Part shown: positions 1 through 25,000 of the stretch, piece by piece
Layout of the letters: each line of letters starts with the position of its first letter
Position numbering within the stretch: the stretch's first letter is position 1
IMG/VR virus record: IMGVR_UViG_3300042868_010856
Location: 1-26,296 of that record
Source of the DNA: a virus
Reading direction: 5' to 3' (one strand)
DNA length: 26,296 bases
Translations under genes and position numbers: made by a program
The notes under the pieces: generated by a model
Told to the model about the DNA's origin: nothing
Seen by the model: the letters and a program-made list of their open reading frames with translations, nothing else
The model's database searches: none

Positions 1-152
1 GTCTCGCAGTAGCTTACGCCCTGCGCGTTAAAGAAGATCGTGACCGGCTCGCGTTCATTCTGAAAGCCGTAGTCGAAGACGAAGCCAAATACAGAATCCT
101 GCGCAACGAAGCCGCAGCACTGCGTAAGGCCCGTGACAGCAAGCACGTCTAA
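1..152 (+). CDS. C-terminal end of an unidentified protein (5' partial)
   Basis: The frame is open from the window edge (first full codon at 3) to a TAA at 150-152. It gives 49 residues rich in Arg, Lys, Glu and Ala, with a helical, charged look (LRVKEDRDRLAFILKAVVED, then RNEAAALRKARDSKHV). No motif is recognisable from so short a tail. Its stop codon lies inside the first copy of the 14-bp palindrome, the same arrangement as the next genes, so it is probably the preceding member of the same operon. Confidence 0.6.
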   Translation, partial: LAVAYALRVKEDRDRLAFILKAVVEDEAKYRILRNEAAALRKARDSKHV

Positions 153-160
153 GATTAGAC
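147..160. promoter_or_regulatory. 14-bp palindrome, copy 1 (GTCTAA-GA-TTAGAC)
   Basis: Perfect 6-bp arms around a 2-bp centre. The TAA of the left arm is the stop codon of the upstream gene, and the site lies 40 bp before the MoxR gene start. It is one of seven copies in the window. The symmetry suits a dimeric DNA-binding protein. As RNA it could also form a 5-bp stem with a 4-nt loop. Confidence 0.7.
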
Positions 161-199
161 CAACCGTTAAGTAAAACCCAACCTATCTAGGAAACCAAA

Positions 200-1261
200 A
201 TGAAACTCGCAATCAACCTTTCTCAAGCCACCACCCTGATCGAAAACTGCGGCGCAAGCAACACCATCCTGTTGCGGGGTGCACCCGGCGTAGGCAAGTC
301 AAGCATCCTCAAGACGCTGGCCCAACGCATGCCGGACTACCTGCCCTGCTATATCGACGTGGCCAACCTCGACCTTGGTGACTTGGCCATGCCAGTGATT
401 GACCGGGACAGCATGACCACATCGTATGCACCCAACGCTCGCTTCGGTATCGCCAAGGGTCAGCGCAAGCCCGTGCTGCTCATGCTCGACGAGTTGGGTA
501 AAGCCTCACGCCCTGTGCTCAACATGCTGTTGCCCGTCATCCTCGAACACCGACTGGGTGACGTTGAACTGCCCGTGGGTAGCGTGGTGTTTGCGACGAC
601 CAACCTTGACACCGATGGGGTGGGCGACAACATCCCTGCACATGCATACAACCGCATGACTGTGGTCAACGTGGGCAACCCGACAGCGGACGAGTGGTTG
701 CACTGGGCCGCGGCCAACGACGTGACCCCCGAGGTGATGGTGTTCGCCAAGCAATACCCGCAGGTGTTCGACAGCTACACCGACTTGGATGACGGCGACA
801 ACAACCCGTATATCTTCAACCCACGCGCTGGTCAGATCAAGGCGTTCTGCTCACCACGTTCGCTGGAGAAAACATCCAACATCATCAAGCGACGTGAGGT
901 GTTGGGTGATGCGCTTATCCCTGCACTGGCTGGCACGATCGGCGAGTCAGCGGCGCGTGACATGGAAGCCCTCGTGCACTTGGCCGACCAGATACCTACG
1001 TTCGAGGCAGTGACCACAGCGCCCGACAAGACCAAGCTGCCCGAGGGTGCAGGTGCTTACTTCCTCATGGCGTTCATGCTGGCTGGCCGTGTCAAAGAGG
1101 ACACGATGGATGCAGTCATGGCCTACGTCGATCGTTGGGAACAGTTCGAGGCACGGACTCTGTTCATCTCCACGCTGGCGACCAACGCATCCAAGGTAGG
1201 TATGGCATGCAAGAACAAAGCGTTCACCAAGCAAGCCGCATCGCTGGGCAAATACTTCTAA
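200..1261 (+). CDS. MoxR/CobS-type AAA+ ATPase
   Basis: This 353-aa protein is an AAA+ ATPase of the MoxR/CobS type, a class that usually couples ATP hydrolysis to remodelling or metal insertion together with a VWA-domain partner. It shows Walker A GAPGVGKS at residues 27-34, Walker B LLMLDE at 93-98, a sensor-1-like ATTN at 132-135, and an NRM segment at 151-153 that may carry an arginine finger. The C-terminal third looks like the helical lid. The VWA partner is encoded two genes downstream in the same direction, the normal context for this family. The start at 200 follows AGGAAACCAAA. Translation covers the usual single-ATPase-domain length. Function as an ATPase is secure. The substrate is unknown, and no CobN-like chelatase subunit is present, so cobalt insertion is not supported. 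Confidence 0.9.
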   Translation: MKLAINLSQATTLIENCGASNTILLRGAPGVGKSSILKTLAQRMPDYLPCYIDVANLDLGDLAMPVIDRDSMTTSYAPNARFGIAKGQRKPVLLMLDELGKASRPVLNMLLPVILEHRLGDVELPVGSVVFATTNLDTDGVGDNIPAHAYNRMTVVNVGNPTADEWLHWAAANDVTPEVMVFAKQYPQVFDSYTDLDDGDNNPYIFNPRAGQIKAFCSPRSLEKTSNIIKRREVLGDALIPALAGTIGESAARDMEALVHLADQIPTFEAVTTAPDKTKLPEGAGAYFLMAFMLAGRVKEDTMDAVMAYVDRWEQFEARTLFISTLATNASKVGMACKNKAFTKQAASLGKYF

Positions 1262-1269
1262 TCTTAGAC
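1256..1269. promoter_or_regulatory. 14-bp palindrome, copy 2 (TTCTAA-TC-TTAGAC)
   Basis: Differs from the perfect palindrome only at the first base. TAA at 1259-1261 is the stop codon of the MoxR gene. The site is directly followed by the GGAG of the next gene. Confidence 0.65.
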
Positions 1270-1273
1270 GGAG

Positions 1274-1289
1274 CACCCCTCGCGGGGTG
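1274..1289 (+). promoter_or_regulatory. Hairpin between Shine-Dalgarno and start codon
   Basis: CACCCC-TCGC-GGGGTG is a perfect 6-bp stem with a 4-nt loop. GGAG at 1270-1273 is 23 nt from the ATG at 1297, too far for normal initiation. Folding the 16-nt hairpin leaves 7 nt, an ideal spacing. No other good ribosome-binding site lies nearer the ATG. Confidence 0.55.
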
Positions 1290-1296
1290 AAACACA

Positions 1297-1866
1297 ATGG
1301 CAAATTCATTTGACGCAGTGCGCGATCTGCGCACACCGGGGCTTGTGATTGGCTCAATCTACATCGACCCACAACAGGTTCCCAAGCGCATCAAGACAGC
1401 AACCCAACGCATGCTACGTAAGCTCACGGTGACCGGGGGGCATAGCTCTAAGTCTCGTAAGCTGTTCGAGATGCTCATGCAAGACTACGGGGACAACGTG
1501 GCGTGGATATGCGACTGGGGCACGGTCTTCAACATCCACCTCACACCCCAACCCTTGCGCGATCAGTGGTGCGAGTATCTGGAGCTGGACTACACCATAC
1601 GTTCGGCGAATGGGCGCTACCCCACTCCTATCAACCAGAGTTACGCACGGGATTCTACGGAGGCGGCAATTGCGCGAGTGCGTAGCGGCACGAGCAGATA
1701 TGCAGGCTTCTCAAACGACACGGCCCGGTGCGACGACGCAGTAACCCCGTTGGTTGTCGAAGCGTTCCTTACACACATGCCGCCTGAACACAAGGCCATA
1801 GGTGAAGCACTCGCCGCTCGACTCGACGGCACTGCGCCCATCCCAGTAAGTATTCGAGGCATCTAA
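1297..1866 (+). CDS. Unknown protein encoded between MoxR ATPase and VWA protein
   Basis: This 189-aa soluble protein has no motif I recognise. The N-terminal half is basic (KRIKTATQRMLRKL, then SSKSRKLFEML) and contains a Trp/Cys-rich stretch (VAWICDWGTVFNIHL). The C-terminal half has RYPTPINQSYARDSTEAAIARVRSG and a helical end. There is no signal peptide or membrane segment. It sits between the AAA+ ATPase and the VWA/metallopeptidase gene, so it may be an adaptor or third subunit of that complex. That role is inferred from position only. Translation probably depends on the hairpin-spaced ribosome-binding site upstream, and the stop codon lies in the third palindrome. Confidence 0.75.
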   Translation: MANSFDAVRDLRTPGLVIGSIYIDPQQVPKRIKTATQRMLRKLTVTGGHSSKSRKLFEMLMQDYGDNVAWICDWGTVFNIHLTPQPLRDQWCEYLELDYTIRSANGRYPTPINQSYARDSTEAAIARVRSGTSRYAGFSNDTARCDDAVTPLVVEAFLTHMPPEHKAIGEALAARLDGTAPIPVSIRGI

Positions 1867-1874
1867 TCTTAGAC
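1861..1874. promoter_or_regulatory. 14-bp palindrome, copy 3 (ATCTAA-TC-TTAGAC)
   Basis: One base from perfect symmetry. TAA at 1864-1866 is the stop of the upstream gene. GGAG follows at once, and the VWA gene starts 12 bp after the site. Confidence 0.65.
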
Positions 1875-1885
1875 GGAGAACGACA

Positions 1886-3073
1886 ATGACACCACTTGAC
1901 CGAATCAAAAAAGCCCACGTCAGTATCATGAGACACAAGCGCTTCTGCGCTTTCTCTGGTGTGCTGGCCTGTGGCGAGACGACCATTGACGACACCATCC
2001 CCACGGCATGCACCAACGGCTGGGACAAGCGATACAACTCGACGTTCGTATCGACCGTGCTGGCCAGTGACCCATGCTTGCGCTTCGTTGTGTTGCATGA
2101 GGCCATGCATGCGTCATACAAGCACCTCACTGTATGGCGCACCCTGTGGAAAGAGAACGCACAGTTGGCCAACATCGCCGCCGACCACTTCGTGAACCTT
2201 GCTCTGCAAGACATGGACAAGGACGAGGGGTTCATCCTCATGCCCGAGGTAGGTGTGCAACCCGATGCCAAGTATCGTGGCTGGTCAGTCCATCAAATCT
2301 TCAACGACCTCAAGCAGCAGCAACAGCAGAACCCCAACTCGGGCGATGGCGACGGTGAGGGTGACGGCTCAGGCAGTGGCATCGACGAGCATGACTGGGA
2401 GAACGCAGGTCAGAAGGATGCCAAGACCCAAGCCGCGCAAGCCCAAGAGATTGATCGTGCTCTGCGTCAGGGCGAGGCACTGGCCCGCAAGCGTGGCGAG
2501 GGTGCGGGTGACAAAGATGGTGTGTTGGGTGACTTGCTCAAGCCTCAAGTTAACTGGCGCGAGAAGCTACGTGAGTTCGTGCAGCAGACATGCCAAGGCA
2601 ACGACGAGAGCACATGGCGCAAACCCAACCGACGCTACCTGACACAGGACATATACATGCCCTCCATGCACAGCGAGACGATGGGTGAGCTGGTCATTGG
2701 GTTCGACACGTCGGGCTCTTGCTTCTCGGGTACGGTCCTCACTAGGTTCAGCAGTGAGATCGCGGCCATCGTTGCGGCGGTTCGACCTGAGAAAACCCGC
2801 GTGATCTATTGGGACTACAACGTGCAGCTTGAGCAGGTGTTCGACAACGGCGAGTTCAGCATGAGCAGCCTCACACCCCGCGGCGGTGGCGGCACTGATG
2901 GTTCCGTGCTGGCCGACTACCTCAAGGAGAAGCACATCACACCGCAAGCGATCGTGCAGTTCACCGATGGCTACGTAGGTAGCTGGGGCGACGAGGTTGC
3001 ACCAACACTGTGGGCCATCACCGAGAACCACATCCGCGCACCGTTCGGCCAGACGTTGCACATCGACGTCTAA
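1886..3073 (+). CDS. Metallopeptidase-like plus VWA domain protein (DUF2201-like), MoxR partner
   Basis: This 395-aa two-domain protein has a putative metallopeptidase domain at the N-terminus with HEAMH at residues 71-75 inside VVLHEAMHASYKHL. A flexible Gln- and Gly/Asp-rich linker follows at about 143-166. The C-terminal VWA domain carries a MIDAS metal site: DTSGS at 274-278, Thr337 in GGGGTD, and Asp361 in FTDG. This matches the DUF2201 putative-metallopeptidase/VWA-like architecture that is commonly encoded beside MoxR ATPases. The expected role is substrate recognition or target binding for the ATPase. Whether HEXXH is catalytically active cannot be seen. GGAGAACGACA upstream of 1886 is a good ribosome-binding site. 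The palindromes flank the gene on both sides. Confidence 0.88.
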   Translation: MTPLDRIKKAHVSIMRHKRFCAFSGVLACGETTIDDTIPTACTNGWDKRYNSTFVSTVLASDPCLRFVVLHEAMHASYKHLTVWRTLWKENAQLANIAADHFVNLALQDMDKDEGFILMPEVGVQPDAKYRGWSVHQIFNDLKQQQQQNPNSGDGDGEGDGSGSGIDEHDWENAGQKDAKTQAAQAQEIDRALRQGEALARKRGEGAGDKDGVLGDLLKPQVNWREKLREFVQQTCQGNDESTWRKPNRRYLTQDIYMPSMHSETMGELVIGFDTSGSCFSGTVLTRFSSEIAAIVAAVRPEKTRVIYWDYNVQLEQVFDNGEFSMSSLTPRGGGGTDGSVLADYLKEKHITPQAIVQFTDGYVGSWGDEVAPTLWAITENHIRAPFGQTLHIDV

Positions 3074-3081
3074 TCTTAGAC
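3068..3081. promoter_or_regulatory. 14-bp palindrome, copy 4 (GTCTAA-TC-TTAGAC)
   Basis: Perfect arms. TAA at 3071-3073 is the stop of the VWA gene. AAGGAG of the next gene begins immediately after the site and its ATG is at 3094. Confidence 0.7.
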
Positions 3082-3093
3082 AAGGAGAACATC

Positions 3094-3492
3094 ATGGGAT
3101 ACAGAAGCCAAGTGACAGCAGTCATCTACCCCGCCGCACCCGAGGACCCACTAGGTCCCGACGCATACAAAGAGTATGAGGCTGAGAAGTATGAAGCACT
3201 GCGGGTCCTGATGAGCACCAAGTTCGAGCAGCTTATGGGCAAGTGGTTCGGCGGTGAAGCGCAGTGGGACGACCGGAATCAGCGCCTCGTGTTCGAGATG
3301 CAAGACGTCAAGTGGTACGAGAGCTACGAGGACGTGAAAGCGTTTGACGCGATGCTCATCAACATTACAGAGCTTGGGTATTGCTCAGAGTTTGTCCGCG
3401 TCGGCGAGGAGACTGATGACATTGAACATCGGTACGAAGGCGACGGCGTGAAATACATACTGAATGTGCAGCGAACCATCACGATTGACTAA
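3094..3492 (+). CDS. Conserved phage protein beginning MGYRSQV
   Basis: A 132-aa acidic protein. I chose the ATG at 3094 because AAGGAG lies just upstream; a longer frame from 3010 would run back into the VWA gene. The N-terminus MGYRSQVTAVIYP resembles a small family of phage proteins that begin MGYRS(D/E)V, whose function is unknown to me. The middle is rich in Trp, Tyr and acidic residues (KWFGGEAQWDD, VKWYESYEDVKAFD). There is no membrane segment. It is followed after 10 bp by the next gene, with its own AAGGAG. Confidence 0.8.
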   Translation: MGYRSQVTAVIYPAAPEDPLGPDAYKEYEAEKYEALRVLMSTKFEQLMGKWFGGEAQWDDRNQRLVFEMQDVKWYESYEDVKAFDAMLINITELGYCSEFVRVGEETDDIEHRYEGDGVKYILNVQRTITID

Positions 3493-3502
3493 GGAGTTCA
3501 AC

Positions 3503-4138
3503 ATGACGACCAAAGAAATTTCCGTGCTTGAGTTGCAGAAGCTCGACCCCAAGCGGTTCGAGCGTGAGTATTGGGATTGGGTGTCACACCACTGGTGGGA
3601 AGGCGACAACACCATCGAATGGTTTGTTTCCGAGCAAACGTCTAAGGGTATCTTGGACATTGACCCGAAGGACGTCACCTACTCTGGGTTCTACTCGCAG
3701 GGCGACGGCGCGGCGTTCGATGCCCGTGTGGACGTGCTGCGATTCATGCGCGACAAGGGCTACGACAACACCTACATGCCGCTGTATATGGACATGGAGA
3801 ACTACGGCGTGACGTGCAAAGTCAGTCGTGGGAGTCATCGTGCCAACTACATGGCGCAGGGCGCGGACATTGACTACACACCGGGCAACTGTTTGCCCGC
3901 AGGGATATTCAGCGACATGAGCCAAGAGGATTGGGACACGCTGTTGGAAGAACAGTGGGGCTACCTTGAGAACGAGCTGGCCACAGAGATTCACGAGTAC
4001 GCCAAGGATGCGGCCGAGGAACTCTACAAGGCGCTCGAAGAGGACTACGACGCATGCACCAGTGAAGAGGCGTTCATAGATTCCTGTGAGTGCAACGAGG
4101 TAACTTTTAAATTGGAGGATGAATCATGCGAGGCTTAG
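3503..4138 (+). CDS. Conserved phage protein with SGFYSQGDGAAF motif
   Basis: This 211-aa acidic protein starts at the ATG preceded by AAGGAG. It contains YSGFYSQGDGAAFDARV at about residues 65-80, a motif I recall from hypothetical proteins of podoviruses and other phages, followed by a long acidic, probably helical C-terminal half (residues about 150-211, many Glu and Asp). No catalytic motif or membrane segment is visible. A 13-bp overlap with the next gene indicates translational coupling. Function unknown. Confidence 0.8.
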   Translation: MTTKEISVLELQKLDPKRFEREYWDWVSHHWWEGDNTIEWFVSEQTSKGILDIDPKDVTYSGFYSQGDGAAFDARVDVLRFMRDKGYDNTYMPLYMDMENYGVTCKVSRGSHRANYMAQGADIDYTPGNCLPAGIFSDMSQEDWDTLLEEQWGYLENELATEIHEYAKDAAEELYKALEEDYDACTSEEAFIDSCECNEVTFKLEDESCEA

Positions 4139-4392
4139 TAAAAATTGGTGGGCGTGATGTTGTGCTCAACGAAGCACGCATGGCTGCACTGCTTGACCTG
4201 ATGCGCGACGCGGTGCACATCAAGGACGAATACATCGGCAGCAACAAGGGCGACAACGGCACCAACTACAAGAAGCTGGTGCGCGCAATCCCTATGGAAG
4301 AGCTGCTGGGTATAACCCTCATGCCCGATGACTACATCGACACACTGATTTTCAAAACCAAACTGCATGACGAAGCGGCAAGCTCCAAGTAA
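4126..4392 (+). CDS. Small protein of unknown function
   Basis: An 88-aa protein that starts inside the end of the preceding gene, with GGAGG 9 bp upstream of the ATG. It has a basic N-terminus (MRGLVKIGGRDVVL) and a helical middle (ARMAALLDLMRDAVHIKDEYIGSNK). No known domain. Confidence 0.72.
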   Translation: MRGLVKIGGRDVVLNEARMAALLDLMRDAVHIKDEYIGSNKGDNGTNYKKLVRAIPMEELLGITLMPDDYIDTLIFKTKLHDEAASSK

Positions 4393-4411
4393 GCCGCGTG
4401 TAAGCAAACTC

Positions 4412-4425
4412 ATCTACGATTAGAC
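4412..4425. promoter_or_regulatory. 14-bp palindrome, copy 5, imperfect (ATCTAC-GA-TTAGAC)
   Basis: The right arm is intact; the left arm has two changes. The site lies in the 47-bp gap before the DUF3150-like gene, just upstream of its AGGA. Unlike copies 1-4 it does not carry a stop codon. Confidence 0.5.
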
Positions 4426-4439
4426 AATAGGAAAACACA

Positions 4440-5342
4440 ATGACACAACAAAACGTAGCCGGTGTGGCCCGTGCAGCCATGCTCGTATCCCTGAACATCA
4501 GCACCTACTCTGGACGCAAGCAAGACAAGCGCACCCAAGGCGAGGTCACTACATCCAAAGGTTCTGGCTCTACCCGTGCGGCGTCGGTATACAAGAACCT
4601 GTTCGCTGACTGCGCCGAGCTGGATGCCATCGTGAAGTTCCAAGCTCGTGCTCGTATGCGCCACTACCAAATGACCCTGCCTTGGGATGACATGGGCCCA
4701 CGCCTGTTGTCTACCGCGGCCTTCATGGACTACAAGACGGACATGAACCGCTATGAAGATCAGTTTAGGTTGCTGGTCGATGCGTTCCTCGACAAGTACG
4801 AGACGCTGGTGGCTGCTGCTGCGTTCAAGCTGGGCACTCTCTTTGACCGTGACGAATACCCCGAGCGCTCGAAGATCGCCAAGAAGTTTAGCTTCGACCT
4901 TACGTTCACACCCCTGCCCACCTCGGGCGACTTCCGACTGGACATTGAGCGTGAGGTGCAGGACGACTTGGTTCGTCAGTATGAACAGCGCTTGCAGATT
5001 CAGGTTGCGGCCGCACAGCAAGATGCATGGCGTCGTATGCACGAGGTGCTCACCCGCCTCAAGGACCGTCTAACATTAGACGACATGGGCAAGCGCAAGA
5101 CGTTTCACGACACGACAGTGACCAACGCGCAGGAGCTTTGCGGTCTGTTGACTCAGCTCAACGTGACCAACGACCCCGCGCTTGAGAAAGCCCGACAACA
5201 GCTTGAGGCAGCGATGGCTGATGTTGACCCCAAAGAACTCCGCAAGGAGGAGAGTGTGCGCCTCGACACCCTGCAGAAAGTCACCTCGACTCTCGACGCA
5301 TGGGACTGGGGCATTGAAGAAGGAGTAGCGAATGACGAGTGA
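4440..5342 (+). CDS. DUF3150-like protein, probable part of the MoxR/VWA module
   Basis: A 300-aa, mostly helical, charged protein with no membrane segment. Residues about 8-30 read VARAAMLVSLNISTYSGRKQDK. The middle has YEDQFRLLVDAFLDKYETLVAAAAFKLG and FTPLPTSGDFRLD. The end is coiled-coil-like (EKARQQLEAAMADVDPKELRKEE). Layout and sequence fit DUF3150, an uncharacterised family I recall near MoxR/VWA genes in phages and proteobacteria. That assignment is from memory of the family and is moderate. AGGAAAACACA precedes the ATG. A copy of the palindrome lies inside the gene at 5068-5081. Confidence 0.75.
   Translation: MTQQNVAGVARAAMLVSLNISTYSGRKQDKRTQGEVTTSKGSGSTRAASVYKNLFADCAELDAIVKFQARARMRHYQMTLPWDDMGPRLLSTAAFMDYKTDMNRYEDQFRLLVDAFLDKYETLVAAAAFKLGTLFDRDEYPERSKIAKKFSFDLTFTPLPTSGDFRLDIEREVQDDLVRQYEQRLQIQVAAAQQDAWRRMHEVLTRLKDRLTLDDMGKRKTFHDTTVTNAQELCGLLTQLNVTNDPALEKARQQLEAAMADVDPKELRKEESVRLDTLQKVTSTLDAWDWGIEEGVANDE
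5068..5081. promoter_or_regulatory. 14-bp palindrome, copy 6, inside coding sequence (GTCTAA-CA-TTAGAC)
   Basis: Perfect arms, extended to 16 bp by flanking C and G. It is read as Arg-Leu-Thr-Leu-Asp, with CTA and TTA leucine codons that are uncommon in the surrounding gene. Confidence 0.6.
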
Positions 5343-5625
5343 CCAGATGGATGACTTGGTTAACACGCAGCCACACGTCTGCCGGTATGTGGAACAGGTG
5401 GATGGGTCGTGGAACCTGAGCATGTTTTTCCCAGCCGAGTCCAAACGAGGTGAAGGCGCGGGTGGCACAGTTGGTACGCAACCCGCGTGGCTCAAGAAGA
5501 TCGTGGACATAGCCATAGTAGCTGACGCGTTTCAAGTAGTGCCGCACCCACCACCGGGGCGCGTCTTGTGGTTCGAGCTGGACGACCACGGCGATTTTTT
5601 GACATTCAGAGACCCAGCAAAGTAA
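5332..5625 (+). CDS. Small phage protein of unknown function
   Basis: A 97-aa protein that overlaps the end of the preceding gene by 11 bp, with GAAGGAG upstream of the ATG. It contains a Gly-rich loop (ESKRGEGAGGTVGTQ) and a Pro-rich stretch (FQVVPHPPPGRVLWFEL). No known domain. Confidence 0.7.
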   Translation: MTSDQMDDLVNTQPHVCRYVEQVDGSWNLSMFFPAESKRGEGAGGTVGTQPAWLKKIVDIAIVADAFQVVPHPPPGRVLWFELDDHGDFLTFRDPAK

Positions 5626-5634
5626 GGACCTAAC

Positions 5635-5817
5635 ATGTATGAACACTTGAGCGATCAAGAATTGCTGCGCATGGCGCAGCACGAGACCCACCCGTTGTTG
5701 GTGGCCATTGCAGAACGCCTCGACATGAGGATACGTGACTTGGAGGACTACGATGCCCACCCCAAACCCTACCACCCCCAGCAACTCGAACTCGACTTCG
5801 GAGGTTCCAATGAATGA
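5635..5817 (+). CDS. Small acidic protein of unknown function
   Basis: A 60-aa protein with a helical N-terminus (SDQELLRMAQHETHPLLVAIAERLDMRIRDLEDY) and a Pro-rich tail. AAGGACC precedes the ATG. It overlaps the next gene by 8 bp. Confidence 0.7.
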   Translation: MYEHLSDQELLRMAQHETHPLLVAIAERLDMRIRDLEDYDAHPKPYHPQQLELDFGGSNE

Positions 5818-5992
5818 CCCATTGACTTATGTGCACCCCCGCACGGTAGAGCAAGCGTTTGGCCCCGGTGAGCGAGGCCCTGTGGTTGAGAAGGACGCAG
5901 AGCCTGAGATGTATTGGGATGACAAGCTGATGCTGTGGGTTGCCCCCGCGGTTGTGATTTTTCTTATTGTTTTATTTGCACTGGAGAACTGA
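5810..5992 (+). CDS. Small single-pass membrane protein
   Basis: A 60-aa protein. GGAGG just upstream fixes the start at 5810 rather than at an upstream in-frame ATG. Residues 1-38 are hydrophilic. The C-terminus is one hydrophobic segment, LMLWVAPAVVIFLIVLFAL, so it is probably anchored by its tail in the inner membrane. Function unknown; it could be holin-like or spanin-like, but nothing specific supports this. Confidence 0.68.
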   Translation: MNDPLTYVHPRTVEQAFGPGERGPVVEKDAEPEMYWDDKLMLWVAPAVVIFLIVLFALEN

Positions 5993-5994
5993 AA

Positions 5995-6366
5995 ATGAAA
6001 GACATTCAAAAACGTGAATTGACTCGTGCCATTAACCTGATCAACGCATTGGGTTGCACCTACAAGATCATCACCCCCGAGGGTGAGAAGTTTGGCGAGC
6101 TTAGGGTTGTCGAGCCGACAGTCAGGACCAAGCGTGCCGAACTTCGGTATCCATATGGCGTGCTGAAGCGCTACGTCTGCGACGAAATGAAAATGGACCT
6201 TGCCATCGGTGAAGTGTACGAGGTGAAGTGTGGACAATTTCACGCGGCGACGTTGCGAGCTTCGATCTGCGCACACCTGACAAAAAATTGGGGTTCGAAA
6301 ACGTACACCACCGTGGCTCACAAAGATCGTATTGAGATTCTACGTACTGCGGCGAGGGCTGAGTGA
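5995..6366 (+). CDS. Conserved phage protein, possibly nucleic-acid-binding
   Basis: A 123-aa basic protein starting two bases after the previous stop, with GGAG upstream. The C-terminal part (FHAATLRASICAHLTKNWGSKTYTTVAHKDRIEILRTA) resembles the tail of a recurrent family of small phage proteins and could bind nucleic acid. That is inference from charge and pattern only. It overlaps the next gene by 4 bp. Confidence 0.72.
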   Translation: MKDIQKRELTRAINLINALGCTYKIITPEGEKFGELRVVEPTVRTKRAELRYPYGVLKRYVCDEMKMDLAIGEVYEVKCGQFHAATLRASICAHLTKNWGSKTYTTVAHKDRIEILRTAARAE

Positions 6367-6590
6367 AATACGTTGCCGCAATCTGGCTGGCGCTTACCAT
6401 CTTCATCGGTTACGAACTGATGGGGATGGCATTCACCAAGGGCTACGAGCAGGGCTACGTTGAGGGGCGTGAACGCGCCTTGATGGACGATCAGTCGCTC
6501 TACAAGCACTGCACCGCTTGGTGGTTCGATGGCAGTGAGCCACGGGCCATCAAGGAGATCAACAAGTACTGTGATCGGAGAAGCAAATGA
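6363..6590 (+). CDS. Small protein with N-terminal membrane segment
   Basis: A 75-aa protein with a GTG start that overlaps the previous TGA. The N-terminal hydrophobic segment (VAAIWLALTIFIGYELMGMAF) is followed by a soluble, charged part with two Cys residues. It is probably a signal anchor with the tail in the periplasm. It overlaps the next gene by 4 bp. Function unknown. Confidence 0.68.
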   Translation: MKYVAAIWLALTIFIGYELMGMAFTKGYEQGYVEGRERALMDDQSLYKHCTAWWFDGSEPRAIKEINKYCDRRSK

Positions 6591-6916
6591 AACACATCAT
6601 CACGGCGCTGGCCCTTGTTGCCAGCACAACCGCATCGGCGCAGTTCTACTCGGGCAACGAGCTGCTCCAGCGCATGGACTCTGGAGATGCTAGTCAAAAC
6701 ATGCTGGCCATGGGTTATGTGGCTGGCGTGGTTGACATGACTCGCGGTGAATACCACTGCGCCCCCGCAACCGTGACGCTCGGTCAAGTGCGGGACATGG
6801 TGCGCAACTACATCTACAACAACCCCGCCAATCGACACATGAACGGCTCGGTGTTGGTGGCTTTACCTCTCGTGGAGATATGGCCCTGCGTTACAAAGAA
6901 AGGCGGGAAGTTATGA
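6587..6916 (+). CDS. Secreted Rap1a/Tai-like protein
   Basis: A 109-aa protein with a clear signal peptide (MKHIITALALVASTTASA, cleavage expected before Gln19). The mature part reads GYVAGVVDMTRGEYHC, then TLGQVRDMVRNYIYNNP, ending LVEIWPC. This pattern fits the Rap1a/Tai family, named for periplasmic immunity proteins that neutralise type VI secretion amidase effectors and also common as small phage proteins. The two mature Cys residues could form a disulfide. GGAG is 4 nt before the ATG, and the gene overlaps its upstream neighbour by 4 bp. The phage role is not known. Family assignment is from memory of the motif. Confidence 0.75.
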   Translation: MKHIITALALVASTTASAQFYSGNELLQRMDSGDASQNMLAMGYVAGVVDMTRGEYHCAPATVTLGQVRDMVRNYIYNNPANRHMNGSVLVALPLVEIWPCVTKKGGKL

Positions 6917-6942
6917 ACAACACAAACACAGGTGGACCAGCG

Positions 6943-6970
6943 TTGACAGATCAATTCAAAATAGTACACT
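6943..6970 (+). promoter_or_regulatory. Sigma70-type promoter for the zinc-finger/HNH gene
   Basis: TTGACA at 6943-6948, a 16-bp AT-rich spacer, and TACACT at 6965-6970. The gene starts at 6998 with AAGGAG at 6987-6992. The -10 box sits in a small interrupted repeat, TACA-C-TGTA. Confidence 0.65.
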
Positions 6971-6997
6971 GTAGTCATTCCAACAAAAGGAGTTGAT

Positions 6998-7543
6998 ATG
7001 AAGTGCGCTCGCTGTGATTGTGATGCAACCATTAAACAGGGCAATCAGACTTTGTGCGACAAGCACTACAGGTTTGGGCAAATGAGGGCGTCGGCCAAAA
7101 GAAACGGCAAGGTAGTCCCAACCAATGAGCAACTCGAAGCGTTTGTCAGTGTAGGAATGAACTGTCCCGATTGCGGCGTGCCTATGAACTGGCGGTCAAA
7201 GGATGGAATGCCAACGGTTGCCAGCCTACAACATTACAGAAGTGGCCGGATCGGAATCGTTTGCTTGTCCTGCAATGTCAGACATGCCGCAATGAGTGGA
7301 GACAGTTATTGCGACATGCCGAAAGACCACAAACGCTGCCCGTCTTGTTTGGAGACAAAACCAGAATTTGAGTTTTATGTGGACATCGGAAGGACCGGCC
7401 CACTCAAACGGAAAAGTATTTGCAAACAGTGTTCAAACGAAAAAACCAAGCAATGGCAAGAAAGGAACAGAGATGAATACAACGCATACCAACGAGCTTA
7501 CAGGGCAAAGCGTAAAGCAAGCGGCAATCCAGTTGAGCGGTGA
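6998..7543 (+). CDS. Zinc-finger/HNH-like endonuclease
   Basis: A 181-aa Cys-rich basic protein. Paired cysteines occur at 3/6, 56/59, 89/92, 114/117 and 142/145, so several zinc ribbons are likely. The central part, SLQHY around residues 77-80 followed by IVCLSCNVRH at 87-96, looks like an HNH nuclease core with His79, Asn93 and His96 as candidate catalytic or metal residues. The C-terminus is basic (KTKQWQERNRDEYNAYQRAYRAKRKA) and probably binds DNA. The gene has its own promoter, lower GC than its neighbours, and a 71-bp overlap with the next frame, all consistent with a mobile insertion. Nuclease activity is inferred. Confidence 0.75.
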   Translation: MKCARCDCDATIKQGNQTLCDKHYRFGQMRASAKRNGKVVPTNEQLEAFVSVGMNCPDCGVPMNWRSKDGMPTVASLQHYRSGRIGIVCLSCNVRHAAMSGDSYCDMPKDHKRCPSCLETKPEFEFYVDIGRTGPLKRKSICKQCSNEKTKQWQERNRDEYNAYQRAYRAKRKASGNPVER

Positions 7544-7751
7544 AATGCTGAATCCAAGAGAACAATTCGAGCAGGAACATTTCAACATCAGCCCCGCCAA
7601 GGTGGGCAAGCGCATCCCTGCGTTTTGGATTCACCAAGCCCCTAGCGCATGGCGCAAGTCTATGAAGTACTGGGCCGCGCTGTGGCTGGGCATCGTGCTC
7701 GGTGCCATCGGTGCTGGTGTGTTGGCTGTGTTTGTGGGGGTGGTGAGATGA
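7473..7751 (+). CDS. Small protein with C-terminal membrane segment
   Basis: A 92-aa product from the ATG at 7473 (AAGGA 8 nt upstream). A shorter 68-aa version could start at the ATG at 7545, right after the stop of the HNH gene. Both share a hydrophilic part (NPREQFEQEHFNISPAKVGKRIPAFW) and a C-terminal membrane segment (WAALWLGIVLGAIGAGVLAVFVGVV). The start is uncertain because the longer form lies 71 bp inside the upstream gene. It overlaps the next gene by 4 bp. Function unknown. Confidence 0.65.
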   Translation: MNTTHTNELTGQSVKQAAIQLSGEMLNPREQFEQEHFNISPAKVGKRIPAFWIHQAPSAWRKSMKYWAALWLGIVLGAIGAGVLAVFVGVVR

Positions 7752-7885
7752 ACGAAAAAACAGAAGGCTACCACTGCGTAGTGTGCGGCAGGTTTCTGCC
7801 AGCAGATGAATACGGCGTCATCGTGCATGACGACATCCCACACCCGCCAGAGATGGATTTTGCAGAAGAGGAGAAGCCGCAATGA
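7748..7885 (+). CDS. Small zinc-ribbon-like protein
   Basis: A 45-aa protein starting at the ATGA overlap with the previous gene. One CxxC pair (YHCVVCGRFLP) is followed by an acidic tail with a His-Pro-Pro segment (DIPHPPEMDFAEEE). It may bind one zinc with a His or as a dimer. Function unknown. Confidence 0.65.
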   Translation: MNEKTEGYHCVVCGRFLPADEYGVIVHDDIPHPPEMDFAEEEKPQ

Positions 7886-8574
7886 CGCCGTTGGTGCGGG
7901 AAATGGTCAAGATGGTATCGGTTGCTAATCTTGACCCAACTCAGATGCAGTGGTTTGATGTGACTGGAGCAATCAAAAAATACATTGGAGCAGACCCAAA
8001 ACAATACTTGTTACATCCAGCACCGTACAAAAACATGATGTTGTGTGGAAAGACAGCGCAGGGTGACTTCATGTTGTCAGTGCTGGCAGAGCCAACAGCA
8101 ACCATTGTGACTGGTTGGATTATGAAGCCGACGGGATACAAATCCCTTGGGTCGTTCCTTGTTGCCGAGCACAATGGTGAGCCAAAGACGGGAGCCGTAG
8201 ACAAGCCTATTGACCCAAAAGACCAGTCAATGATGTGCGGGATTTTGGCTATGTTTTATGCGTCGCTTGACATGAAGATTGAAGCATATGTGCCAACAGC
8301 CAAAGACACATTCACAAATCGCCGCAAAATAAAAGAAGGCAAGTTGCCCACGTACGACTGGCACACAGTGACGATTGAGCCGCCCAAGCATCAGTCAGAA
8401 TCTCGCGGCGGTACACACGCAAGCCCACGCAGGCATCAAGCAAGAGGTCATTGGCGCACTTATAAGTCCGGCAAGCGCGGCTGGGTCAAAGAGTGTTGGC
8501 GCGGCGATGCCAGCAAAGGCGCAGTGTTTAAAGATTATGAATTTAAGGAGAAACCAAATGAGAGACACGATTGA
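7882..8574 (+). CDS. Conserved phage protein with C-terminal RGHWRTYKSGKRGWVKEC motif
   Basis: A 230-aa protein. Residues 1-155 form an alpha/beta-looking domain (MMLCGKTAQGDFMLSVLAE, then TIVTGWIMKPTG). After a basic His-rich linker, the C-terminus reads ARGHWRTYKSGKRGWVKECWRGDASKGAVFKDYEF, a pattern I recall from many phage and prophage hypotheticals. The gene is visibly more AT-rich than its flanks, with different codon preference, suggesting recent acquisition. It overlaps both neighbours. Function unknown. Confidence 0.75.
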   Translation: MTPLVREMVKMVSVANLDPTQMQWFDVTGAIKKYIGADPKQYLLHPAPYKNMMLCGKTAQGDFMLSVLAEPTATIVTGWIMKPTGYKSLGSFLVAEHNGEPKTGAVDKPIDPKDQSMMCGILAMFYASLDMKIEAYVPTAKDTFTNRRKIKEGKLPTYDWHTVTIEPPKHQSESRGGTHASPRRHQARGHWRTYKSGKRGWVKECWRGDASKGAVFKDYEFKEKPNERHD

Positions 8575-11787: not shown

Positions 11788-12270
11788 ATGGCTAAACAGC
11801 AAACACCGGAGTCGTTTTGGGCAAAGGTATCCGTAGGAGCGCCCGCCGAGTGTTGGGAGTGGCAGCGATGTGTAAATTCGTCTGGGTACGGCAATGTCGC
11901 GTGGGGACAAAAACTATACACCGCGCATCGTGTTTCCGCGTGGTTAAGCGGTTTGGTTGCTTCGCCGTCAGCGCCTTCTAGTAGCCGCGAGCCCACACAC
12001 GTACTGCATACATGCGACAACCGTCGATGCTGCAACCCCGGGCATTTCTTCCTAGGGACGTTTTCAGACAACATGGTTGACGCGTACAAGAAGAAGCGCA
12101 AACAACAACCTACCGGCGCGCGGCATGTAAACGCCAAGCTAACCGCAGCCCAAGCGACTGAGATACGGAAGCGATATACGGCCGGCGAGCTGCAGGTTCC
12201 GTTAGCCAAAGAGTATGGCGTGTCACAGCGCGCAATTAGTTTAGTTGTTAGAGGAGAAACGTACAAATGA
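11788..12270 (+). CDS. HNH endonuclease with C-terminal HTH (homing type)
   Basis: A 160-aa protein. CWEWQ at 22-26 and GYG at 33-35 begin the HNH_3-type fold. AHR at 46-48, VLHTCDN at 72-78 and CCNPGHFFLGTFSDN at 81-95 give the HNH core (His47, His74, Asn83, His86), with cysteines that can hold a structural zinc. After a basic linker, residues 118-155 form a DNA-binding helix-turn-helix (EIRKRYTAGELQVPLAKEYGVSQRAISLVV in two parts). This architecture is that of free-standing phage homing endonucleases. It has its own promoter and overlaps the DNA polymerase gene by 4 bp. Polymerase genes are a frequent target neighbourhood for such elements. Confidence 0.85.
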   Translation: MAKQQTPESFWAKVSVGAPAECWEWQRCVNSSGYGNVAWGQKLYTAHRVSAWLSGLVASPSAPSSSREPTHVLHTCDNRRCCNPGHFFLGTFSDNMVDAYKKKRKQQPTGARHVNAKLTAAQATEIRKRYTAGELQVPLAKEYGVSQRAISLVVRGETYK

Positions 12271-17453: not shown

Positions 17454-17708
17454 ATGACATTCAAAATCGAAAAAGGCATCCCCCTGCCGGTTAGTGCGCG
17501 ACGCGCGCCTAACTCCGTGTACCCCTTTGACCAACTGGCCGAAGTCGAGGACAGCTTCCTTGTGCCCTGTGCTGCGGATGAAATCAAGACAGTGCGGCCC
17601 CGTGTTTCGTCTGCTGTGGCGCAGTTCCACAAACGACACAAAGAACTGGGAGTGCGGCTTGCTGTTCTCCCCGTACCCGGCGGCGTGCGCGTTTGGCGCA
17701 CTGCCTAA
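17454..17708 (+). CDS. Small conserved phage protein (KIEKGIPLP type)
   Basis: An 84-aa protein. It begins with a conserved-looking motif (FKIEKGIPLPVSARRAPNSVYPFDQL), then DSFLVPC, and has a basic second half (VAQFHKRHKELGVRLAVLPVPGGVRVWR). It resembles short phage proteins of unknown function found near SSB-like genes. CGGAGAACACA precedes the ATG. Confidence 0.72.
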   Translation: MTFKIEKGIPLPVSARRAPNSVYPFDQLAEVEDSFLVPCAADEIKTVRPRVSSAVAQFHKRHKELGVRLAVLPVPGGVRVWRTA

Positions 17709-17737
17709 TTTCCTATCCTTCCAATCGAAAGCAAATC

Positions 17738-18622
17738 ATGAGCAATATGACTCTCTTTAAGTCCGGCAACGTAGCCCTCCCAGACTACCTCCGCGAAGTC
17801 GATGAAACCACCCGAGCCCTCGCCGGCAACGGCGGCGGCAAACAAATCTCCATCAAGGGCGGCGTGTGGCGCATGATCGTCGGCGGTGAAGAGGTGGCCA
17901 AGAACGAAGACCGTGCGATGAATTTCGTCGTGCTGGGTGCTGCACCAAAAGTGTCGCGCACGTTCTACATGGGCAAGTACGAAGAAGGCAAAGACGTGTC
18001 CCCCGCTTGCTGGTCGGCTGATGGTGAGCGCCCCAACGATGAAGTCCCCGCAGCAACCCGCCAAAGTGCGACGTGCACCAAGTGCCCACAGAACATCGAG
18101 GGTTCCGGCGAAGGCAAATCGCGCGCATGCCGTTACAGCCGACGTCTGGCCGTGGCTCTGGAGAACGACCTCGAAGGCAACATCTATCGTTTGCAACTTC
18201 CCGCTAAGTCCTTGTTCGGCAAGGCCGATGGTGAGAAGATGCCGCTGGATGCCTACGCTAAGTTTTTGGCAGGTCACGGTGTGCCTATCACCGGCGTGGT
18301 TACCGAAGCCCGATTCGATACCGCTGAAGCAGTCCCTGTTTTGAAGTTCCGCGCCGTGCGCCCCTTGACTCGAGAAGAGTGGGACGTGGCCAAGGAAGTT
18401 TCGCAAAGCGAAGAAGTTCGCCGCGCAATCGAGTTCAAGATGGTGGTCAAAGCCAAGAGCGATGACGGCGGTGCTAAGGAGTACCAAGAGCCCGCAGCTG
18501 CGGCCCCAGTCGACGAGCCTGTGAAGCGCCCCACAAAGGCCGCCAAAGCAGCTCCTCCGGCTGAACCCGCTGCTGGCTCCGTAGAAGATATCCTGAAAGA
18601 CTGGGGCGGTGACGATGCCTAA
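17738..18622 (+). CDS. Probable phage ssDNA-binding protein
   Basis: A 294-aa protein. The N-terminal and central part (GGVWRMIVGGEEVAKNEDRAMNFVVLGAAP in two blocks) looks like an OB-type beta fold. Four cysteines, Cys91, Cys113, Cys116 and Cys131, could form a zinc site, comparable in position to the zinc-bearing core of T4 gp32 but not the same spacing. A Pro/Ala-rich linker (about 252-280) leads to an acidic tip (VEDILKDWGGDDA), the hallmark of SSB and gp2.5-like proteins that recruit partners. Neighbours are helicase, primase and polymerase genes. SSB function is inferred from this layout. The start at 17738 has only a weak ribosome-binding site (GAAAGCAAATC). Confidence 0.7.
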   Translation: MSNMTLFKSGNVALPDYLREVDETTRALAGNGGGKQISIKGGVWRMIVGGEEVAKNEDRAMNFVVLGAAPKVSRTFYMGKYEEGKDVSPACWSADGERPNDEVPAATRQSATCTKCPQNIEGSGEGKSRACRYSRRLAVALENDLEGNIYRLQLPAKSLFGKADGEKMPLDAYAKFLAGHGVPITGVVTEARFDTAEAVPVLKFRAVRPLTREEWDVAKEVSQSEEVRRAIEFKMVVKAKSDDGGAKEYQEPAAAAPVDEPVKRPTKAAKAAPPAEPAAGSVEDILKDWGGDDA

Positions 18623-21838: not shown

Positions 21839-22043
21839 CATCATTACCCTGAACGGGTCGGAGTACCTGATCAACTGGAAGCGCCTCACCCGGGGCGCGT
21901 CCTTCTTCATGCCAACCACAGCTACACCGAAACAAGCCGAAGAGGCACTGGTGGACGCAGCACGAGAGCTGAACATGGAGTTCGAAGTACGCGCCCGGTG
22001 TGAGTACGGGCGGTACGGCGTGCGGGTCTGGCGGGTTTACTGA
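21801..22043 (+). CDS. Small conserved phage protein of unknown function
   Basis: An 80-aa protein that starts inside the primase gene. After a Pro-rich leader come LNGSEYLINWKRLTRGASFFMP and a C-terminal FEVRARCEYGRYGVRVWRVY that looks like a compact beta motif. No known domain. Its end overlaps the end of the minus-strand gene by 7 bp. Confidence 0.72.
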   Translation: MQSTPKTEPPPVDIITLNGSEYLINWKRLTRGASFFMPTTATPKQAEEALVDAARELNMEFEVRARCEYGRYGVRVWRVY

Positions 22044-25000
22044 TTACGTATCGAGGCGCGAGCCTCACGCAGCCAGCCAACCAACTCCACTTCGATGCGG
22101 CGCACTTTTTCCAGTTGCGCTTTGCGCTCTTCCATGCTCATAGAAGCTGCCGAGGCTTTGCTGTTGAGGAAGTTCTTGTACCCCCGGGTGTCCGAAAGCT
22201 CAGCCAGTGCTGAGTTGATGCCCTGCGCCAGAATCAAATCCTGCTCATGCACCTTCATGTACTCTTCGGCGCGGTTTGGGTCGTACTTGGCCAACTCCCG
22301 CATGGTGTTGAGCTTGGGCACGGTTTTCTCGCGCATATCGTAGAACTCGTTGACCCGGCGCGTGCCGACTGGGTCATACAAGAAGTTGCTCAGCATCCAG
22401 TATTTGTTCATCGGACGGTCGATGCGGTCTGGGTTGATCAACTGGTCGGTAGCCATCGTCAGCATGCCTGAGACCGAGCCGAAGTAGCCTTGCAGGAAGT
22501 TGTCGATCTTGATCGGAGAGATGGTCGCTCCCTCACCAAACGTGCTGCTGGTGAAGTTTGCAATCGCCTTGGCCAACTCGCTGGTGTTTGAGCGCACGCG
22601 CTGGCTCGATACCAATTCCTGCTGAAACGTGCCTTCGAGCTGTTCGCCAGTAAAGAACGAGTAATTTGTCCACGCTTCCAATACTGGCTTGATCGCAGCA
22701 GGGACAGGCACCGTGCGGCCGAGGTACTGCTCGAACGCATACTTGAGGGCCGTGATCGACGCTTCGGCAGCTTCCATATCCTCTGGCGTGCCGTTGCGAC
22801 GGAAATACTCCAGCGCCATCTCAACGGGCACCTTGTAGATCGCAGACAGTTCTTCTGGCACTGGGAGCTTAAACCCACCGGGGAGCAGCCAGTTGTTGTT
22901 GCGGGTGCGCAGGTCGGCTTCTTCGTACTCATCTTCCCCGCTCATCATGATTGCGTAGATAGCGGAGAACATAGCCATGGTGGCTACCTTGCTGGCAAAC
23001 AAACGCCGTGCCTGAGCCCTACCCACCGATGCACTTGCGCTTTTGCCGGTCGCTGCACGGTACAGCACGTCCATACCTTGTATGTAGGCGTTGAAGAACG
23101 GGATAGTAGCGGTCAGCGTGGGCATGATAGCCCCAGCGCCGCGGCGTCGGAAGTTGATGAACTCACGGGCCCGAGTCTGCGCCAGCAGGGCGTCGTCCTG
23201 CGATTCCTTCATGGTCTGTTCGTAGATTGCTTTACGCACAGCCAAGTCAGAGGCGCGGGTGATGCCGTCGAGCTTGTGCAGCAACCCTTTAAGCGGCCCC
23301 CGTGCCTTGAACCCCAAGTCATACATGATGGAGTCCATGGGGTTGCGCGTGTCGAAATCGTAGTCGCCGGTGATACCTAGCTGGCCAAACTTCTCCACTG
23401 ATGGGTGCCGCTTGCCCATGACCTCATACGCGGCGATCGTCACAAAATTGCGCAGTGCCGGCAGAATGATGGCATAGGGATTCTGCACCCCAGACGTTGC
23501 AAACGCACGCTGGATGTCGTTGATAACCTGCCGCACCGCGAAGGGAGGCATAGACGTAATGGTCTTGCGCAGCAAGTTGGACGGACCCGAAAACAAATCA
23601 ACGATCACGCCTTTTGGCTGCGCCATGTCTTTAAACGCTAATACGTCCCAGCGAGATGGCAGCTCGAAGAATACTTTCTCACCTTTGACGTAGGACTGCA
23701 CGAGCTTTTCAGTGGGCGCTGCGCCAGCGCGCTGCCCCAAAAACTTGGCGTAGCCCATGTCCTCCATCATACGCAGTGTGGTGAGCGTAGCGTCCTGCTG
23801 CACGATTTGGTTCAGCATCCACCCAGCGGTCTTGGTAAAGTTGTTCAGCACATCGCCTACTTCGCGCTCTTGGGTCGTTACGAGCTCAGGCAGTTTGCCC
23901 AGTTGTGCAATACCGCCGCCTGTGCGCTTAGAAGAGCGAAACTTGGTAGCAAATTCTTCAATGCGGTCGAACGGCACGTAGTCGGTGGCATCTCTCCATG
24001 CCTTACCTTCTTCGGGGGTCAAACGCCCCACAGACACCATCTTGTCGATCAGCTCGAAGCGCATTTTGTCCATCTTGGCTTTGATCAGGGCCAGTTCAGG
24101 ATTGGCGGCGTACTCTGCCAGTGCAACGTCGATCTGCTCGTCGGCGGTGCGGGAGTCTTTTAGCGACAGCTTGTTGATAGAGAACTTAGTTTCGCCAGCA
24201 GCGTTCGACTTGCGAAGCGCGTCCAGACGCAATGCTTCCAACATCTTGGAGAACTGCGCCATGCCGCGGTCAAATGAGATGCCCTTGCTCTTGGCCCATG
24301 TCTGCACGTCGGTCAGCACCTCCTTCATGGAGGGGACGCCGTCTTCGACGCCGGTTTCGTACTGGCCGGTTTCCTTGTTCTTGATCAGCGAGCCGTCCGT
24401 AAACCATGTAGTCAGTAGCTTGCTGGTGTCCTGTGCCTGACGGTACAGACCCATAGGGTTCAAGATACCCTTGGCAGTGCGCACTGCGCCGTCGAACAGC
24501 AGGTTGATCTTGGTCTCCATCGACGCGCCCGCGTCAGCCGTCAAGGTGCGGAACCGATCGCCAAACGTCACCCCTTCAGCCGTAGTAAACGCTTCTACCA
24601 TTTGCTTAGCCGCGGTCTTGATGAGTCCGGGTTCGTCCTTCATGAGCTCACTGGACTCTACGATCTCGTCAAAGTCGGACTTGGTGGCTGGCTTCATAGC
24701 CTGTTTGGACTGCTTGCGTACCGCGGGCTCGTCACCCATACCGGGCTCTACGTTGGTACCTGCCTCGGCAATCTGCATGTCCCGGCCAGTGTCCAGCATG
24801 GAATCTACGGCGATGAGGGCCTCGGCCAGCGCGGTGTTCTCAGTCGTAGGACTGATACCCAACATCTGCAGCACGGACTTGGCAAACGCAGTGAACGCAT
24901 TGGTGCGTTGGTACGGAATCTTCTGCAGCTCCGCTTGGAACTCGGGGTTGGACATGGCCTCCGATGCAAACTCGCTCAGGTTCTTCAGGCCGTAGGTGTC

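Follow-up and report, generated by a model that had tools for sequence, protein, structure and literature searches.

A phage three-gene module encoding a MoxR-type ATPase, a metallopeptidase-VWA protein and a DUF3150-like protein has counterparts on conjugative plasmids

What could a phage gain from a MoxR-type ATPase encoded together with a metallopeptidase-VWA protein and a DUF3150-like protein? This combination stands at the head of the replication block of the window analyzed here, a stretch of 26,296 bases that is the complete IMG/VR record IMGVR_UViG_3300042868_010856 and probably represents part of a genome of approximately 60 to 65 kb. The source is a tailed phage that, in its replication genes, most resembles Rhizobium phage RHph_TM3_14A and Pseudomonas phage KPP25; the polymerase, the exonuclease, the SNF2 protein and the product of 17693-18622 are common to all three. 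A search of 50,697 phage records revealed no close DNA relative. A sequence-only reading of the window had described a complete MoxR-type machine with extra partners and had named takeover, counter-defence or virion maturation as possible roles. The open reading frames that it listed are present on the plus strand at 200-1261 (353 amino acids [aa]), 1297-1866 (189 aa), 1886-3073 (395 aa) and 4440-5342 (300 aa).

The product of 200-1261, the counterpart of N4 gp24, was identified as an AAA+ ATPase, as had been claimed, by its match to PF07728 (23.5 bits; cut-off, 22) and to phrog_1297 "ATPase" (E value of 2e-51). Walker A (GAPGVGKS, approximately 278-301), Walker B (DE, approximately 488-493), the sensor-1 Asn (approximately 602) and the conserved Arg residues were all found, and G30, G32, K33, D97, N135, R152 and R220 are invariant in a 16-row alignment. 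The gene is paired with one for a VWA protein, as is characteristic of MoxR ATPases. The best solved relatives of the ATPase are midasins (E value of 1.5e-42), with Clp/Hsp100 proteins far behind (4e-13) and NorQ as another match. Midasin combines AAA modules with a MIDAS domain to remove assembly factors from pre-ribosomes. Searching by tblastn revealed relatives of the ATPase in 535 phage records and relatives of the VWA protein in 525.

The VWA protein (1886-3073, plus strand), the counterpart of N4 gp25, scores above the cut-offs for PF13203 (E value of 2e-28) and PF09967 (E value of 4e-15) in one chain, which consists of a metallopeptidase-like domain, a Gly/Asp-rich linker and a VWA domain and so has the architecture of the DUF2201 metallopeptidase-VWA (N4 gp25-like) proteins. 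The metallopeptidase-like domain contains HEAMHASYKH (HExxHx4H, approximately 2096-2125), and the MIDAS pattern D-x-S-G-S...T...D is intact (DTSGS, approximately 2705-2719, with T337 and D361). H71, E72, H75, H80, D274, S276, S278, T337 and D361 are invariant over 16 rows, and HExxHx4H was present in all 20 VWA proteins checked by hand. The Walker A/B, HExxH and MIDAS residues are thus intact, as had been noted. An AlphaFold model of the protein (pLDDT of 72.7) matches VWA/I-domains in the Protein Data Bank; Foldseek matches to Ro60, which could have suggested RNA binding, were put down to the VWA domain.

The third protein (4440-5342, plus strand) had been called DUF3150-like. It gave no direct match to PF11348, even at an E value of 10, and the name holds through homology instead: 4 of its 11 relatives match PF11348 (best E value of 1.7e-7), and comparison of its profile with plasmid DUF3150 proteins gave an alignment of 219 columns (probability of 91.5%, E value of 8.5e-7). 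The AlphaFold model (pLDDT of 78.5) is mostly helical. No solved fold matched it at an E value of 0.001 or below, and for this reason no function was read from the model; the protein is best read as an adaptor or client. Among GenBank phages, a relative was found in only three records, one of them annotated as DUF3150, and a search of the open-access literature yielded no paper naming DUF3150. Phage G gp569, considered as a further relative, is a coiled-coil protein and was dropped.

To find further loci, IMG/VR viral contigs were scanned. Scans with single proteins gave no matches, and 7-row alignments of the VWA and MoxR proteins were too diverse for scanning; success came with paired or clade alignments of the DUF3150 protein. 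The first round revealed 11 DUF3150-type loci, all 11 with the three genes on one strand. Two wider scans yielded 77 viral loci, some on the same contigs as in the first round. MoxR, VWA and DUF3150-like genes lie on one strand in 73 of these, and the four loci without the full triad are on contigs cut short. The triad is complete in all 42 loci that have flanks longer than 4.5 kb in both directions and in 47 of the 48 clusters formed at 90% identity, and it also occurs on a contig from a metagenome-assembled genome (L019). Simple regular-expression patterns, applied to frames that were in part incomplete, detected HExxHx4H in 70 of 73, MIDAS in 69 of 73 and Walker A in 73 of 76 of the second-round cases. 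The genes therefore do co-occur across related phages, the point on which the sequence-only reading had staked its proposal. The gene order is MoxR-DUF3150-VWA in 55 loci, DUF3150-MoxR-VWA in 11 and MoxR-VWA-DUF3150, the order of the window, in 7. Because the order varies while the company is constant, this result speaks for a functional link beyond mere common ancestry of one stretch. Chance similarity is excluded for the gene families.

The genes between the core three show no such conservation. The protein encoded by 1297-1866 has no significant match in Pfam, PHROG or the set of relatives. In other phages the gap that it fills is held by homing endonucleases or other genes, such as the annotated HNH-type genes of G7C and phiTE, and it is probably a passenger. 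The product of 3094-3492 (approximately 132 aa) has no relative in loci L002 to L018. Relatives of neither protein were found in any locus tested, including L008, whose core proteins are 58 to 69% identical to those of the window. The product of 3503-4138 resembles phrog_5162 (E value of 3e-15) and recurs in L008 and, weakly, in the metagenome locus L019; at approximately 211 aa it is less small than the "three small proteins" of the earlier description implied. The protein encoded by 4126-4392 (88 aa) is common to the window and L008 only. All four genes are on the plus strand. Because of their poor conservation, the product of 1297-1866 and the small proteins were rejected as machine parts. 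What stands of the proposed complete machine with extra partners is the set of three conserved genes; the other four are lineage-specific passengers.

The presence of a MoxR/VWA pair in a phage is not new, although it had been presented as an unexplained surprise: such pairs are widespread and published (PMC7824862; PMC4193335; PMC4124505). N4 gp24/gp25 are core genes of N4-like phages, of unknown function, and belong to the middle transcripts (PMC4193335; PMC7650795). These Schitoviridae proteins (phrog_1297 and phrog_1314) share the ATPase family, the HExxH-VWA architecture and the adjacency of the genes with the pair in the window, at approximately 23 to 30% identity, but no DUF3150 gene was found in the Schitoviridae searched (G7C and Presley). 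The jumbo-phage MoxR/peptidase-vWA chaperone pair consists of the same two proteins with the same peptidase-vWA fusion, and the accessible part of its description makes no mention of DUF3150 (PMC7824862). A MoxR pair was noted in Bacillus phage 0305phi8-36 in 2007 (PMC2147016). In the archaeal virus ATV, the MoxR ATPase p618 has a VWA partner, p892, and binding of the two was shown (PMC4124505); as points of difference, p618/p892 are part of the virion and, according to PMC7824862, lack the peptidase domain. In most phages with the ATPase/VWA pair no DUF3150 gene was detected, so the third part is dispensable there. While the pair is known, the tightly linked third gene appears to be a new, seemingly undescribed part, and its placement beside DNA recombination genes on plasmids appears to be undescribed as well.

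A PF11348-type protein was found in 1,168 plasmid records, 978 of them predicted to be conjugative. In nine plasmid loci inspected, a small sample chosen from hit lists that includes IncC, the AAA ATPase, DUF3150 and VWA genes occur together without exception. Genes for bet/recT and a lambda-type exo lie within approximately 5 kb in seven of the nine; a Xanthomonas plasmid carries SSB and PD-(D/E)XK nuclease genes instead, and a Geoalkalibacter plasmid has neither set. The plasmid machine thus sits among Red-type recombination genes. The module encloses the bet and exo genes in two cases, an Aeromonas plasmid and a Klebsiella IncC plasmid, the latter with the order AAA-hypothetical-ssb-bet-exo-DUF3150-VWA. 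Loci of IncC and related MOBH plasmids have the same three parts as the phage module, and HExxH and MIDAS are kept, being invariant in the plasmid VWA proteins. They differ from it in their CobS/CbbQ-type ATPase and CobT-like VWA protein, which are distant in sequence, and in that bet, exo and ssb are next to the locus or within it. Similarity between plasmid and phage VWA proteins was detected only in the HExxH region (E value of 6e-6, 69 columns). The phage-type triad is also found on two Burkholderiales plasmids, which the MoxR tree places inside the phage triads, grouped with locus L016 (support of 99/97). On this tree the three-gene state requires two changes, a number reached by none of 500 shuffles. 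The evidence points to the two N4-like core genes and the IncC-type resistance-plasmid block being versions of one machine, which turns two questions of function into one that is testable in laboratory Escherichia coli or Pseudomonas fluorescens.

In phages, the module is surrounded by genes for an SNF2 helicase, a RecB-type exonuclease, DNA polymerase, primase and HNH proteins; terminase, portal or Clp-protease genes are also found within some 10-kb flanks. This replication-gene neighborhood may reflect only early/middle transcription. KPP25 has replication genes in common with the window and neither MoxR nor VWA, which shows that replication in itself does not require the module.

We propose that the three genes encode a midasin-like, ATP-driven and possibly proteolytic remodelling machine that acts inside the cell on DNA replication/recombination complexes, and we hold this reading to have even chances of being correct. 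The machine itself is well supported. We infer DNA-bound protein complexes as its target because of the settings of the module in plasmids and among phage replication genes. The MoxR-type ATPase would assemble as a ring, to which the VWA protein would bind, its MIDAS metal site gripping an acidic residue that belongs to a partner or to the target. The helical DUF3150-like protein would serve as the adaptor or dedicated client that delivers the target. ATP hydrolysis would then pull the target apart or alter its conformation; cleaving the target or sensing its state would probably fall to the HExxH domain of the VWA protein. The action would most likely be on a DNA-bound protein complex in the infected cell during replication or recombination, and not on the virion. 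A literature search found no interaction, ATPase or peptidase test of this family. By analogy, the phage set looks like the midasin principle in separate subunits. Midasin (Rea1/Mdn1), the closest solved AAA relative, is a single giant chain, found in eukaryotes, whose action is directed at ribosome precursors, whereas the phage proteins would be separate small subunits, with a peptidase-like domain joined to the MIDAS subunit by a flexible Gly/Asp-rich linker. More tentatively, DUF3150 could be a third subunit, and an obligate one, of a machine of mobile elements that also comprises the midasin-like AAA ring and the peptidase-VWA adaptor. Such a machine would serve the recombination system of the element itself, for example, by stripping or cleaving proteins from recombining DNA, and would have moved between phages and conjugative plasmids; this extension seems to us possible but rather doubtful.

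The dispensability of the module in KPP25 points to a conditional rather than a basic function, which leaves room for counter-defence or host takeover. In that case the machine would remove or cleave host proteins (defence proteins, RecBCD or nucleoid proteins) bound to phage or plasmid DNA that is entering the cell or being replicated. The accessory distribution of the module, which some phages have and others lack even though they share replication genes, is consistent with such a role, as are its occurrence in both phages and plasmids and its position next to bet and exo in the latter. Comparison of PADLOC families with the three proteins, however, revealed only weak P-loop or partial matches, and the fact that nearly all N4-like phages, from many hosts, have kept the genes points to a general role, so that we regard counter-defence as unlikely. 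Counter-defence and remodelling of replication/recombination complexes overlap, the target alone being different.

A role as a chaperone of virion assembly or maturation, with the MoxR ring and the VWA/peptidase protein folding, assembling and trimming structural proteins, was proposed for the jumbo-phage pair (PMC7824862). ATV offers a parallel, with tail growth as the analogy, since its MoxR ATPase p618, which has a VWA partner, is located in the virion (PMC4124505); in the PA5oct record the ATPase gene is tagged as detected by mass spectrometry, and in RPP1 virion-protein genes are close to gp24/gp25 (PMC4193335). Against this role, N4 gp24/gp25 are middle transcripts (PMC4193335), the module of the window heads a replication block, and the module is missing from KPP25 although structural genes are present there. 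A role in the virion only fits poorly because conjugative plasmids carry the module and produce no virions; maturation, which we consider improbable, fits least well of the three roles named at the outset. MoxR/VWA pairs with a metal-insertion function are established, and the plasmid counterparts resemble CobS and CobT, but activation of a metalloenzyme, of phage or host, in the manner of a chelatase or of NorQ/NorD is very improbable. The scores are far below the curated CobS/CobT cut-offs (95 versus 559 bits and 33 versus 759), and no large chelatase subunit (CobN/BchH) or dedicated metalloenzyme was recognized among the main open reading frames searched in the window, which is probably a fragment, or in the plasmid neighborhoods inspected.

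The palindromes mentioned in the sequence-only reading are real. Allowing one mismatch, TCTAANNTTAGA occurs in seven copies in the window, compared to 0.21 expected, and five of them lie just before module genes. On the plus strand, TCTAAGATTAGA (148-159) precedes the ATPase gene; TCTAATCTTAGA spans the ATPase stop codon (1257-1268) and the VWA stop codon (3069-3080), each time before the next gene, and is positioned directly 5' of the Shine-Dalgarno sequence of the VWA gene (1862-1873); the variant TCTACGATTAGA (4413-4424) precedes the DUF3150-like gene. Module palindromes, of the approximate form GTCTAA-NN-TTAGAC, lie at or shortly after stop codons and 5' of Shine-Dalgarno sequences; two further copies are within genes, at 5069 and 12827. 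No sigma70 promoter was predicted in positions 1 to 6000 (2.5 expected), and terminator-like sites occurred at chance frequency. Palindromes of this type are absent from L008. The palindromes look like putative operator sites of a phage regulator, outside the machine. Other triad phages have different palindromes, for the most part at comparable positions: GGTTCA-N3-TGAACC occurs 16 times in MinM2 and TTACACAGCTGTGTAA five times in L018.

Comparison of the phage metallopeptidase-VWA protein (window 1886-3073) with database records revealed that its family is labelled "HNH endonuclease" in phrog_1314 and in many RefSeq phage records. This name is an error; Pfam detected no HNH domain in the protein. 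The misnaming may have arisen from neighbouring HNH genes, such as those adjoining the metallopeptidase-VWA gene in phages G7C and phiTE.

Other genes were found near the triad of AAA+ ATPase, metallopeptidase-VWA, and DUF3150-like genes. A phrog_5162-type protein is encoded alongside the triad in three loci, the window (3503-4138), its viral relative L008 (8324-8956), and the MAG contig L019 (12504-13208). A gene of L008 (9263-9940), positioned between small phage genes and the DUF3150 gene and flanked by hairpin-like sequences, is apparently an insertion; judged by eye, its product resembles a phage KilA-N/antirepressor-type protein. In IncC-type plasmids (L125, L036, and other MOBH plasmids), ssb, bet, and exo adjoin or interrupt the AAA-DUF3150-VWA block, which may therefore have a part in Red-type recombination.

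Several unrelated phages each carry a recurrent palindrome of their own, located in the window at positions 148, 1257, 1862, 3069, 4413, 5069, and 12827, in the viral locus L002 at 16 sites, and in the viral locus L018 at sites spread over 151-8392. The palindromes mostly lie between the stop codon of one gene and the Shine-Dalgarno sequence of the adjacent gene. These palindromes are possibly operator or "stoperator"-like sites of a phage regulator.

Elsewhere in the window, a His-Me/HNH-type homing endonuclease gene (11788-12270) is positioned directly upstream of the DNA polymerase gene. The gene at 22037-26278 lies on the minus strand, opposite to the replication block, and its 1413-aa product contains an LPD38 large-polyvalent-protein domain.
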